The position numbers and the translations under genes were made by a program. DNA of 64,000 bases from Nocardia goodfellowii. Its GTDB lineage: Bacteria; Actinomycetota; Actinomycetes; Mycobacteriales; Mycobacteriaceae. The notes beneath the pieces were generated by a model. The model saw nothing but the letters and a program-made list of their open reading frames with translations, did no database searches and was not told the origin of the DNA. Shown in pieces: positions 15,792 through 59,167 of this stretch. The stretch is from the NCBI RefSeq assembly GCF_017875645.1, contig NZ_JAGGMR010000001.1, positions 2,046,001 through 2,110,000 of the forward strand, in the 5' to 3' direction. How positions within the stretch are numbered: the stretch's first letter is position 1; every line of letters begins with the position of its first letter.

Positions 15792-18700
15792 ATGGTGCCC
15801 GGTATGGAGTTGGGCGAACGCACGCCCGAACCGGCTGGCCCGGAGCGCTTTCCGCTCGCCCCCGCGCAACTCGGCCTGTGGTACGCGCAGTTGCTCGAGC
15901 CCGAGGTCCCCATCACGATCGCCCAGTACGTCGATGTCCGCGGTGAACTGGATGTGGCGGCGCTACGGCGCGCATTGCGCGAGGCGACGCTGGAGTACCA
16001 GTCCACGATGGTCCGGCTCGGCGAATCCGACGGTGTTCCGTATCAGTGCTTCGATCCAGGACTCGCGGTCGACATGCCGCTGATCGACTTCCGGCGGGCG
16101 GCGGATCCGGCTGCCGCGGCGCGGGATTGGATGCGGGCGGAGGCGAGCGCACCCCTGGATCCGGTCCGCGATCGACTGTTCGCGGGGGCGATCCTGCGGG
16201 TCGGTGCGCAGCGTTGGTTCTGGTATACGCGGGCACATCACCTGGTGCTCGACGGATACGGCGCGCTGACCAACACCATGCGGGTGGCCGAGCGCTACAC
16301 CGCACGGGTACTCGGCACCGAGGTGACGCCGGTGCGGCCCGCGCCGCTGACCGAGCTGGTGCGCGGTGAGCTGGACTATCGGGCGAGTTCCCGGTTCGAG
16401 GCGGACCGGGCGCACTGGGCACAGCGGGTGGCCGGGCTGGACGCGGTCACCAGCCTCGACGGACGTACCGCGCCGCGGGCGGCGGCCAATCTGATCGTCG
16501 GCCGGGCCCTGCCGGAAGATCTGGCCGAGCGCATGAACACGCTTGCGGCCGAGCAGGATTCGACCATCGCCGTGGTGCTGCTCGCGGCGTTCGCGAGCTA
16601 CCTGGGCCGGTTCACCGACCGTGCCGATGTGGTGCTCAGCCTGCCGGTGACCGCGCGGACCACCGCGGTGATGCGGCGTTCGGCGGGGATGCTGTCGAAT
16701 ATCGTGCCGTTGCGGGTGCGGGTGGGACGCGCGGTGCGCTGGGCGGAGGCGCTGCGGGCGACGCGGGTCGAGCTGGCCGGGGCGTTGCGGCATCAGCGGT
16801 ACCGGCACGAGGACATCCGGCGTGACGCCGCGCGCGACGGGCGTCCGGCGCGCCGGGCGCTGTTCGGGCCGCTGGCCAACATCATGCTGTTCCAGCGGGA
16901 TCTGACGCTGGGCGACACCGTCGGGCGGTATCACGTGCTGTCCACCGGCCCGGTGGAGGATTTGAGTCTCAACGTCTATTACGGCGACCGCGACCGCGTG
17001 CACGTCGATTTCGAGGCGAATCCGAATCTGTACGAGGCCGAGGACCTGGCGCGCCATCACACGCGGTTCCTGCGGTATCTGGAGCGATTGGTGGCGGCCG
17101 GGCCGGACACACCGCTGGGCGCCGTCGACGTGGCGACCGAGCTGGAAGTCGAGGTGAGCACCCGGCTGTGGAACGCGACGGAGTTCGAGCTGCCGGGTCG
17201 TGGTGTGGCGACCCTGGTTTCGATGTTCGAGGCGCAGGCGGCACGGTCGCCCGACGCCGTCGCGCTGCGGTCCGGGCCGGTCGCGGTGAGCTATCGGGAG
17301 CTGGCCGGGCGCAGTAATCGGCTGGCGCGCTACCTGATCGAGCGCGGGGCCGGACCGGAGACCTTCGTCGCCGTGCATATGCGGCGGTCGGTGGACGCGG
17401 TCGTCGCGATGTACGCGATCCTTGCGGCCGGGGCGGCCTATGTGCCGTTGGATCCGGATCATCCGGCCGATCGGACCGCGCACATTCTGGAGACGGCGCG
17501 CCCGTCGTGTGTGCTGGCGACAGAACACGATGCGCCGCAGGGCGTTCCGGGCGTGCTCCTGCTCGATGACCTGGATCTGGCGGGATACGCGGACGGGCCG
17601 GTGTGGGAGCGGGAACGCCGTGCGGCGCTGCGGCCCGCGCACCCGGCGTACGTTATCTTCACCTCCGGTTCGACCGGCCTGCCGAAAGGGGTGGCGGTCA
17701 GTCACGCGGCGATCGTGAACCGGCTCGTCTGGATGCAGCGGGCCTACCGGCTCCGGCCCGACGATGTCGTGTTGCAGAAGACGCCCGCCACCTTCGATGT
17801 GTCGGTGTGGGAGTTCTTCTGGCCGTTGCAGATCGGCGCCACCCTGGTACTGGCGACGCCGGACGGGCACCGGGATCCCGGTTATCTGCGCGCGGCAATC
17901 GCCGAATACGGCGTCACCACCGCGCATTTCGTGCCGTCCATGCTGGAGCTGTTCCTGGCCCGGCCGGAGCCCCTGCCGGACACCGGCCTGCGGATGGTGT
18001 TCGCCTCCGGCGAGGCGCTGCCCGGCGCACTCGCGCAGCGACTCCGGGTGCTGACGGGCGCCCGATTGCACAACCTGTACGGTCCCACCGAGGCCGCGGT
18101 CGATGTCACCTGCCATGAGGTGACCGACGCCGACACCCTCGCGGTGCCGATCGGCGCGCCCGTGTTCAACACCCGGGTGTACGTCCTGGACAGCGGTCTT
18201 CGGCCGGTCCCGGTCGGTGCTCCGGGTGAGCTGTATCTGTCGGGGGTACAGCTCGCCCGGGGTTATGTGGCGCGGCCCGCGCTGACCGCCGAGCGTTTCG
18301 TGGCCGACCCGTTCGATCCCGGCGAGCGGATGTACCGCACCGGCGATCTGGTCCGCTGGACACCACGCGGAGAACTGGAGTACCTGGGGCGCACCGACTT
18401 CCAGGTCAAGCTGCGTGGGTTGCGGATCGAGCTGGGCGAGATCGAAACGGTGCTCGAGGCGGTCGATTCGGTGCTGCGCGCCGTCGTCGTGCTGCGCGAC
18501 GAACAGCTGGTCGCCTATGCGGTGGCGGCTGTGCCGGGCTCGGTCGAGGTGGAGCGGTTGCGGGCCGCTGCCGCTCGCGCGCTCCCCGGCTACATGGTGC
18601 CCGCCGCGTTCGTAGTGCTCGACGCCCTGCCGGTGAACGCCTCCGGAAAACTGGATCGGGCCGCGTTGCCCGCTCCCGACCGTGTCGCCGCGGTATACCG

Positions 18701-57700: not shown

Positions 57701-59167
57701 GCCGACCTGAGCGCCGAACGCTTCGTGGCCAACCCCTTCGGGGCGCCGGGCACCCGTTTGTACCGCACCGGAGACATGGCCCGCTGGGCCGCCGACGGCA
57801 ACCTCGTCTACCTCGAACGCCGCGACTTCCAGGTGAAGGTGCGTGGCTACCGCATCGAACTCGCCGAAATCGAGCACGCGTTGCGCGCCCAGCGGGGCGT
57901 CGGCGACGTCATCGTGGTGGCGCAGCACGCCGGTGGCGCGAATGCCCTACTGGCAGGCTATTTCACCGCCGCGGGTCCGGTCGACACGAGCGAGTTGCGC
58001 ACGGCGCTGTCCGAAGTGCTCCCCAGCTACATGGTCCCGTCGGTACTCACCCGACTGGACACGTTGCCGCTGAACTCGAACGGCAAGGTCGACCGGCACG
58101 CGCTCCCACGCGCGGACGCGGGCGGACGCGAATTCCGCGCTCCCGCTACGGAATTGGAGACGCTGGTCTGCGCGGTATTCTCCGACGTGCTGGGCGTCGC
58201 GGCGATCGGCCTGGACGACAACTTCTTCGAACGCGGCGGGAATTCCCTGCTGGCGACCCGATTGTCGGTGCACCTCAGCGCCGCACTGGCCGAGGAGGTT
58301 CCGGTCGTCTGGCTGTTCTCCGCCCCGACCCCGGCATCCCTGCTGGCTCAGCTGACGCTCGCGCGTTCCGGTCGCGGTCAGGTGGAGGTGGACGCGGCGT
58401 TCGACGTGCTGTTGCCGCTGCGTCCCGGCGGACCGAGGGAACCGGTGTTCTGCCTGCACCCCGTGGGCGGTGTCGCCTGGTCCTTCGCCGGGCTCGCCGC
58501 GCACATCACACCGGACCGCGGCATCTACGGCCTGCAATCTCCGGCACTGAATTCCCTGGCGCCGCTGCCGGATTCGATCGAGGAGTGGGCCGGCCGCTAC
58601 GTGCGCGAGATCCGCGCGGTGCAACCGGACGGCCCGTACCACCTGCTCGGCTGGTCGCTCGGCGGGGTGCTGGCGCACGCCGTAGCCATCCAATTGCAGG
58701 ACGACGGCGCGCATGTCGCGCTGCTCGCCATGATGGACAGTCCGCGCACCGTGGCGGGTGCCGATGCGGCGGCGATCCCGGTGGCCGACCTGCTCGGCGG
58801 ACTCCTGGGCGATCAGGCCACCGACTCCGAGTTCGACCTGGATCAGCTGGCGGCCCGCCTGGCCGACCTGCCCGAGCCGTTCGCGTCCTTCGGTGCGGAC
58901 CGCCTCACCCGGCTGATGGACGCGGGCGCCCACTCGCTGTTCCTGATCACCCGCTATCGCCCCCGCCGCTACAAGGGCGATCTGGTCTATTTCACCGCCG
59001 CACTGGATGATCCGACCGGCGCCACCGGCGCCGCGAGCTGGTCCGACGCCGTGGACGGCACCGTGCACAACCATGGCGTGCAAGCCACGCACTGGCGGAT
59101 GACCTCCGGGCCGGCCCTGGCCCGGATCGGCCATGTCCTGACCACGATCTGGTCGGCCGGCGCGTGA
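33704..59167 (+). CDS. Giant non-ribosomal peptide synthetase 2 (A-T, C-A-T x7, TE)
   Basis: An 8,487-aa enzyme. Residues 30-120 are an A-like fragment, then A6 and T6 (Ser671), then seven C-A-T modules with HH motifs at 854, 1917, 2982, 4047, 5103, 6167 and 7303 and T serines at 1727, 2788, 3861, 4920, 5984, 7029 and 8181. A type I thioesterase follows (nucleophile Ser8318 in GWSLGG, likely His in THWRM near the C-terminus), which releases the peptide by hydrolysis or cyclisation. Ser is predicted at positions 6 and 10; positions 7, 8, 9, 11, 12 and 13 are unassigned. No E or MT domain is seen. The ATG overlaps the stop of NRPS 1, and GGAAGGAAA lies upstream; the frame is open to 33293, but that part is an out-of-frame shadow of NRPS 1. 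Confidence 0.95.
33788..34060 (+). other. A-domain-like N-terminal fragment of NRPS 2 (candidate docking element)
   Basis: Residues about 29-120 (EDLPGLIA...[17 protein letters not shown]) precede the true A6 start at about residue 131. They align with the C-terminal tail of NRPS 1 over about 90 residues, sharing DLPGLIA, HGA, SY and AMG positions. Confidence 0.6.
34094..35820 (+). other. NRPS module 6, second half: A(Ser)-T
   Basis: Pocket DVWHFSLVDK, serine. T Ser671 in GGNSLLAAR. Confidence 0.85.
35875..39000 (+). other. NRPS module 7: C-A(unassigned)-T
   Basis: A-domain core is FDVSLWGYF. Pocket DVWDFILVSK; the acidic residue at position 278 could favour a basic side chain, but this is inference. 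The same pocket recurs in module 11. Confidence 0.75.
39055..42180 (+). other. NRPS module 8: C(altered motif)-A(unassigned)-T
   Basis: The C domain has HHIAADA instead of HHIAADG (Gly to Ala at 39470-39472). Pocket DVPHFSLVEK: a serine-type framework with Trp changed to Pro and Asp to Glu. Confidence 0.75.
42254..45410 (+). other. NRPS module 9: C-A(unassigned)-T
   Basis: Pocket DVWEHGAISK. Glu at position 278 is seen in ornithine-type pockets, so a basic or hydroxamate residue is possible but not shown. T Ser3861 in RGGNSLLAM. Confidence 0.75.
45463..48570 (+). other. NRPS module 10: C-A(Ser)-T
   Basis: Pocket DVWHFSLVDK, serine. C motif HHIAADGVS. Confidence 0.84.
48628..51770 (+). other. 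NRPS module 11: C-A(unassigned)-T
   Basis: A core FDVALWGYF, pocket DVWDFILVSK, the same as module 7, so both should load the same residue. T Ser5984 in GGNSLSATQ. Confidence 0.75.
51823..54900 (+). other. NRPS module 12: C-A(probably hydrophobic)-T
   Basis: The A domain is divergent from all others here ([18 protein letters not shown]). Pocket DALFTGTIIK, dominated by small and aliphatic residues, suggests a hydrophobic amino acid. Confidence 0.72.
54961..58370 (+). other. NRPS module 13: C(with insertion)-A(unassigned)-T
   Basis: The C domain has about 90 extra residues (about 55308-55582), rich in Ala, Arg and Glu, just before HHIAADGSS. Pocket DLWTLILVSK, related to module 5. T Ser8181 in [10 protein letters not shown]. 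Confidence 0.75.
58438..59164 (+). other. Terminal type I thioesterase domain
   Basis: Alpha/beta hydrolase starting at VFCLHPVGG, with the oxyanion/nucleophile segment [15 protein letters not shown] and a C-terminal His. It is similar to the EntF thioesterase and would release the 13-residue chain, by water or by an internal Ser/Thr hydroxyl. Confidence 0.88.

Follow-up and report, generated by a model that had tools for sequence, protein, structure and literature searches.

In Nocardia cyriacigeorgica GUH-2, Zoropogui et al. (2013, PMC3751702) described a 12-module non-ribosomal peptide synthetase (NRPS) gene of 43,689 bp, NOCYR_4800, and two further operons of two and three coding sequences for 13 and 11 building blocks. 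For NRPS line #36, predicted to make 'Ser-rich 13 aa peptides', Komaki et al. (2014, PMC4035055) name four Nocardia species but not N. brasiliensis, and they note that the roles have yet to be investigated. Gene cluster family (GCF) 6 of Maennle et al. (2020, PMC7413640) comprises Nocardia NRPSs of 7–13 modules with nitropropane dioxygenase, metallopeptidase, esterase, epimerase and enoyl-CoA dehydratase genes as invariant neighbours, and Ceniceros et al. (2017, PMC5550956) described Rhodococcus lipopeptide NRPS families with starter condensation (C-starter) domains and Ser/Thr-rich predictions. Here we analyse a 64,000-nucleotide stretch of the Nocardia goodfellowii genome (the window), which contains an adjoining pair of NRPS genes, N1 and N2. 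We estimate at about 0.8 the probability that this pair is the already described 'Ser-rich 13-residue' peptide synthetase of Nocardia, making an acylated all-L 13-mer released by a thioesterase (TE).

Results

N1 and N2 form an intact-looking 13-module NRPS

N1 starts with an ATG at 15792, with AAGGAGG just 5' of it, and meets N2 in the sequence TGATG, where the two genes overlap by one base and the N2 ATG lies at 33704. A Pfam scan of module-sized chunks (E ≤ 1e-5) gave, module by module, five units of condensation (C), adenylation (A) and thiolation (T) domains followed by a C domain for N1, and A-T, seven C-A-T units and a TE for N2. The totals are 13 C, 13 A, 13 T and one TE domain over a combined 14,457 aa; all 13 modules are complete for C, A and T, with module 6 divided between the two proteins. 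At that threshold the chunks gave no epimerase, methyltransferase or any further type of domain. The original prediction, a model's description of the same DNA, had given 13 modules, 14,457 residues, a span of 15792..59167 and a terminal thioesterase, all of which agree exactly with the open reading frames (ORFs), the Pfam domains and the GWSLGG motif in N2. A chance origin is excluded by the size, by Pfam E-values down to ~1e-93 and by the order kept in 20 of 21 close relatives, and we regard it as confirmed that N1/N2 is a real and well-conserved NRPS.

C3 (~22600) and C13 (~55500) carry insertions of ~35 and ~85 residues directly before the HHxxxD motif, which are probably flexible linkers. 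Among 20 relatives, both occur in one genome (G115), a smaller C3 insertion in another (G112) and an insertion in C13 in a third (G021).

A two-gene operon of N. cyriacigeorgica GUH-2 has nearly the same pockets

One genome of our comparison set, G044, has a frame of 14582 aa in which the first C domain extends to 5338757, next to the NOCYR_4801 start given in print, 5338862 (PMC3751702). Among the C domains listed, it also has two frames of 6131 and 8790 aa with six and seven C domains, and a group of three frames of 2487, 4299 and 5641 aa. Because of the NOCYR_4800-sized frame at the published coordinate and the two-gene NRPS with 6 + 7 C domains, we take G044 as GUH-2 and its two-gene operon as the orthologue of N1/N2. 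Read in G044, the operon consists of two genes with 5 + 8 A domains, like N1/N2, with the same GAF-domain gene upstream, and 11 of its 13 pockets are identical, the only changes being L to M in A8 and A to S in A9. It differs in belonging to another species and in a TE of 76% identity.

The original prediction had recognised no described product with this pattern. For the cluster the pattern is already on record, since the GUH-2 operon shows the same 13-pocket order bar two residues and Ser-rich 13-residue peptides had already been predicted for the genus (PMC4035055); a known cluster with the same pocket order, named in advance as speaking against the prediction, thus exists. For the product the statement stands, because no chemical product of the cluster family was found in the literature searched, among the matches listed. 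The retrieved parts of PMC12153302 and PMC11364655 contain nothing bearing on the cluster.

Pocket residues predict Ser and Thr at five positions

We read nine-residue pockets by aligning the 13 A domains to the PheA segment, in PheA numbering; the final residue of A12 was re-read by motif, the alignment having left a gap there. The pocket order is the one read earlier by eye, with predicted Ser at positions 1, 3, 6 and 10, predicted Thr at 4, and identical pockets at 7 and 11. We take DVWHFSLVD to be the Ser code of EntF and DFWNIGMVH to be the standard Thr code. Since no paper of the literature searched contained DVWHFSLV and DFWNIGMV together, the calls at these five positions rest on canonical codes and on the Ser-rich family prediction of Komaki et al. 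A12 probably accepts an aliphatic residue, judging from its pocket. For A7, the highest-scoring single-stretch matches among solved structures, FscH (404 bits) and EntF (402 bits), do not settle the substrate.

The assembly line is conserved among Nocardia

The comparison set comprised 118 genomes of the genus, our own included, labelled by G-numbers. Some TE match occurs in all 118, and a TE of at least 73% identity in at least 32 (own genome included, counted by hand), a lower bound since at most 22 candidates per genome were scored. A TE-domain scan of named genomes gave 27 loci, 26 in Nocardia and a single Rhodococcus locus, in R. triatomae (51% identity); identity reaches 79–81% in N. vinacea, N. 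pseudovaccinii, N. anaemiae, N. australiensis and N. xishanensis. We read the clusters of 19 of the other 31 genomes with TE ≥ 73% and those of G021 and G091 (TE 65 and 69%), and 20 of these 21 relatives keep the 5 + 8 A domains in unchanged order. In one draft (G076, contig C42), N1 is broken into frames of 4973 and 1132 aa, by a frameshift or a draft error.

Pockets were compared over 21 complete clusters, the window included. The exact Ser code is present in all 21 at positions 1, 3 and 10 and in 16 at position 6, where the remaining five retain His278, Ser301 and Asp331. Position 4 reads DFW-x-x-GMVH and position 13 DLWTLILVS in every cluster, while DVWDFILVS occupies position 7 in 20 and position 11 in 20, one being changed and one, A11 of G091, unreadable by alignment. 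Pockets are exchanged at position 2 in three genomes (G020, G033, G074) and at position 8 in three others (G047, G053, G091). In an A-domain tree, positions 1, 4, 5, 6, 9, 12 and 13 each form a single clade of the 21 clusters, the window included; the clades comprise 20 clusters for positions 7 and 11, 18 for 2 and 8, and 19 for 10 (weak, 0.53), and position 3 was not resolved as a clade. A one-base overlap of N1 and N2 is possible in 16 of the 21 clusters.

The condensation domains suggest an acylated all-L chain

Compared with solved structures, C1 matches RzmA-Cs best (1.3e-68), followed by ObiF1 (9.1e-55), the first C domain of CDA (5.6e-50) and EntF (1.1e-48). The RzmA entries 7c1h/7c1k represent the lipoinitiation domain of rhizomide biosynthesis (PMC7804268), which is thus the nearest solved relative of C1 but comes from P. 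rhizoxinica and has acetyl as its native acyl group.

We built a tree solely from domains of this genome, the 13 C domains of the window and 58 C-family domains of its other NRPSs, and labelled them by gene order. C1 falls within a clade of six first-in-line C domains plus one further domain (support 1.00) and groups with four other first-in-line C domains (0.99), apart from the starter C domain of the NRPS at 3561 kb. C2–C13 lie in a separate clade (0.98), in which none of the seven domains labelled as following an epimerisation (E) domain (post-E, or DCL) is found; the clade with those seven also includes three domains labelled only C. An N-acylated all-L chain is therefore the simplest prediction, given that there is no E domain and that C2–C13 lie outside the post-E clade.

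Other possibilities for the start and the stereochemistry seem less likely. D-residues introduced via dual C/E or DCL domains do not agree with the position of C2–C13, all outside the clade of the seven DCL-labelled domains, and an aryl-capped, EntF-like start is disfavoured because C1 is nearer to RzmA-Cs than to EntF and groups away from the 3561-kb starter. The original prediction of an EntF-like first C domain and an acylated start thus holds for the acyl-type starter but not for EntF as its nearest relative.

One chromosomal site contains synthetases of different lengths

Compared by hand, the GAF gene and a TE on the same contig are 43.2–45.5 kb apart in the 13-module group and ~27, 31, 37.5, 47, 50 or 57 kb apart elsewhere. 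We read nine variant loci, picked for differing GAF-to-TE distance or TE similarity and hence not random, so that the counts are not frequencies. The site holds nine modules in G106 and G024, 11 in G001, 14 in G072, 15 in G037 and G078, and 17 in G011; G099 has 13 modules with pockets other than those of the window, and G071 has 10 readable A domains across several frames, where the true number may be 11. G113 was left out of this series, its NRPS being off site, with the GAF gene and the NRPS 1.5 Mb apart.

By best match, counterparts of A6 and A7 are found in all nine variant loci, of A5 in eight (not G071) and of A9 in seven (not G037 or G078), while the first domain is A1-like in eight, the exception being G099, whose first domain is nearest to A8 and then to A1; best matches to A12 at 51–60% may mean merely the same general type. 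The A6-like domains (66–68%) of G106, G024, G001 and G071 carry the non-Ser pockets DAWFYGIVM, DPWFHGIVT, DAWFLGVVL and DAWVIGGVI, and such hydrophobic-type pockets would fit a swap of only part of an A domain. From these comparisons the site seems to house one synthetase family re-modularised between species.

Neighbouring genes and other NRPSs of the genome

Of the 220 ORFs of ≥100 aa listed for the window, we scanned 29 non-NRPS ORFs as neighbours. Those recognised are mycofactocin genes, the GAF gene, an elongation factor G (EF-G) type factor, a DNA alkylation repair enzyme, a ferredoxin-type reductase, TetR genes and an alpha/beta hydrolase. The region 8846–15462 contains mftA, MftB and MftC in one open frame (9354–10910), mftF and mftG, and then the GAF gene; among 14 relatives, 13 also have mftG 5' of the NRPS. 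We rejected the GAF gene as a cluster-specific regulator: it is matched at E ≤ 1e-60 in 91 of the 118 genomes (eight of these at merely 46–49% identity), far more often than a close TE (at least 32 of 118), and is therefore not specific to the 13-module form. The tandem-TetR genes downstream were rejected as part of the cluster, relatives of them lying 3' of the NRPS in just three of 14 genomes. Table 1 gives the coordinates.

With 78 C-family matches in the genome of 7.98 Mb, the window NRPS is one of several. Another locus, 523989–566693, is a single frame of 14,558 aa with 12 A domains, near the published 12-module NOCYR_4800 of GUH-2 in size (PMC3751702); among its pockets, DVWDFILVS occurs once and DLWHLILVS three times in succession.

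Table 1. Features of the NRPS locus (window positions) and the basis on which they were assigned.
Feature	Position	Strand	Basis
N1, NRPS, 5970 aa; modules 1–5 (C-A-T each) and module 6 C domain	15792..33704	+	ORF, Pfam
N2, NRPS, 8487 aa; module 6 A-T, modules 7–13 C-A-T, thioesterase	33704..59167	+	ORF, Pfam
C1, starter-type condensation domain	15849..17147	+	Pfam; best solved match 7c1k RzmA-Cs; clade of first-in-line C domains
A1, DVWHFSLVD (predicted Ser)	17226..18266	+	Pfam, pocket alignment
A2, DVWSLALVH (no substrate call)	20409..21467	+	Pfam, pocket alignment
A3, DVWHFSLVD (predicted Ser)	23688..24749	+	Pfam, pocket alignment
A4, DFWNIGMVH (predicted Thr)	26931..27992	+	Pfam, pocket alignment
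A5, DLWHLILVS (no substrate call); ~40-residue insertion between motifs A3 and A5	30120..31289 (end approximate)	+	Pfam, pocket alignment
C6, N1 C-terminal condensation domain, expected handover to module 6 on N2	32010..33362	+	Pfam, C-domain tree
A6, DVWHFSLVD (predicted Ser)	34106..35137	+	Pfam, pocket alignment
A7, DVWDFILVS (no call; Asp at 278)	37271..38329	+	Pfam, pocket alignment
A8, DVPHFSLVE (Ser-like variant)	40475..41515	+	Pfam, pocket alignment
A9, DVWEHGAIS (no call; Glu at 278)	43679..44728	+	Pfam, pocket alignment
A10, DVWHFSLVD (predicted Ser)	46865..47908	+	Pfam, pocket alignment
A11, DVWDFILVS, identical to A7	50009..51091	+	Pfam, pocket alignment
A12, DALFTGTII	53201..54232	+	Pfam, pocket alignment and motif
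A13, DLWTLILVS (no call)	56636..57694	+	Pfam, pocket alignment
Type I thioesterase, GWSLGG motif	58442..59122	+	Motif, Pfam
GAF-domain gene, candidate regulator	14110..15462	+	5' of N1 in 14/14 relatives tested
Two adjacent paralogues, each with two tandem TetR-type DNA-binding stretches, 411 and 422 aa	59318–60553, 60680–61948	−	

Discussion

The domain order, the pockets and the grouping of the C domains suggest how the assembly line might work. Translation of N1 and N2 is probably coupled. An acyl group would be attached to Ser1 by the starter C domain at the head of N1, with acyl-CoA or acyl-ACP (acyl carrier protein) supplied from elsewhere in the genome, and the other 12 C domains, of the ordinary L-L type, would elongate the chain, if the modules act colinearly, by Ser-X-Ser-Thr-X on N1 and then Ser-X-X-X-Ser-X-X-X on N2, all residues presumably remaining in the L form. 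The C-terminal thioesterase would then release either a free acid or a lactone closed through a Ser or Thr hydroxyl. As to the role, our guess is that the product is most likely a secreted or envelope-associated lipopeptide of the surfactant or antimicrobial type.

Several observations weigh against an acylated 13-mer synthetase of the Ser-rich family. The scanned neighbours include no recognisable acyl ligase, ACP or exporter, and the sole MbtH match of the genome lies at 744825, 1.3 Mb off, which does not account for the supply of the acyl starter. Some lipopeptide synthetases have a dedicated acyl ligase or ACP in the cluster, which is not required, as acyl-CoA from the cell could serve. 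Eight of the 13 pockets have no confident substrate assignment: the six distinct 8-letter codes of seven positions (A12 not searched) were found in no paper of the literature searched, and neither were three of the six 4-letter pocket beginnings together. In one relative, G084 (C145:5900-35400), the eight N2 pockets are present with the GAF gene ~1 kb 5' of the N2 frame, leaving no room for N1; this gap may be a deletion or an assembly collapse. The assignment to line #36 is inferred from the module number, the Ser-richness, the species and the GUH-2 match.

A cell-envelope lipopeptide, like the mycobacterial glycopeptidolipids, instead of a secreted metabolite would agree with the starter-type C1, with common descent across many Nocardia and with the scanned neighbours, among which no exporter or resistance gene was recognised. 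We consider this rather unlikely, because no glycosyltransferase, methyltransferase or MmpL-type gene was recognised there either, except mftF of the mycofactocin genes, and a 13-mer is far longer than the peptide core of glycopeptidolipids.

Improbable, too, is a product other than a 13-mer, made by skipped or iterated modules or by N1 and N2 working with other partners. The 9 to 17 modules at the same site in other Nocardia and the G084 locus might point in this direction, but C, A and T domains are present in all 13 modules, with module 6 split across the two genes, a one-base overlap of these genes is possible in most of the clusters, and the missing N1 of G084 could reflect a faulty assembly.

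A siderophore, binding iron through basic or hydroxamate-forming residues loaded by modules 7, 9 and 11 or through Ser hydroxyls together with an aryl cap, is very improbable despite the acidic residues at pocket position 278 in A7, A9 and A11 and the relation of C1 to EntF too: the genome's 13 Lys/Orn N-oxygenase matches all lie outside the window, the strong one (3583130) being 12 kb from the 3561–3571 kb NRPS, whose pockets include DMENIGLIN and from whose starter C1 groups away, and a weak one (2519563) adjoining the 2520–2533 kb NRPS; no N-oxygenase, aryl-capping or iron transport or regulation gene was found at the cluster in the part of the window ORFs scanned, nor any uptake or export gene recognised; and no IdeR-type box occurs in the window at ≤3 mismatches, a weak test, as the chance expectation is also 0. 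The original prediction had left siderophore and lipopeptide both open, and of these the lipopeptide is favoured.

Returning to the acylated Ser-rich peptide, we think it fairly probable that one fixed Nocardia site, behind the mycofactocin and GAF genes, holds a single homologous lipopeptide synthetase, re-modularised to 9, 10–11, 13, 14, 15 or 17 modules around the mostly kept anchors 1, 5, 6, 7 and 9. The result would be a ladder of acylated Ser-rich peptides of differing length, in which DVWDFILVS and DLWxLILVS might specify a substrate class not yet decoded. Re-modularisation at this site was not found stated in the text passages of the literature searched. An assembly line of ~43 kb in constant order across many Nocardia probably makes something that the cell uses. 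The natural series of 9–17 modules at one site is useful for studying NRPS module gain and loss, and the repeated undecoded pockets lend themselves well to the assignment of new A-domain specificities.

Among the systems described so far, line #36 shares 13 modules and a Ser-rich prediction with the window (PMC4035055). The Rhodococcus families have the same type of architecture in a neighbouring genus (PMC5550956), in which we identified no orthologue, the R. triatomae TE locus not having been followed up. GCF 6 and the N1/N2 family both represent large Nocardia NRPSs, with variable module number, but the invariant GCF 6 neighbours named in the retrieved text (PMC7413640) were not seen among the scanned ORFs, save for the alpha/beta hydrolase at 2808–3623. 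The cluster of N. goodfellowii thus extends an orphan family already published for Nocardia, to which we add its location behind the GAF and mycofactocin genes and the related synthetases of 9–17 modules at that site in other Nocardia.

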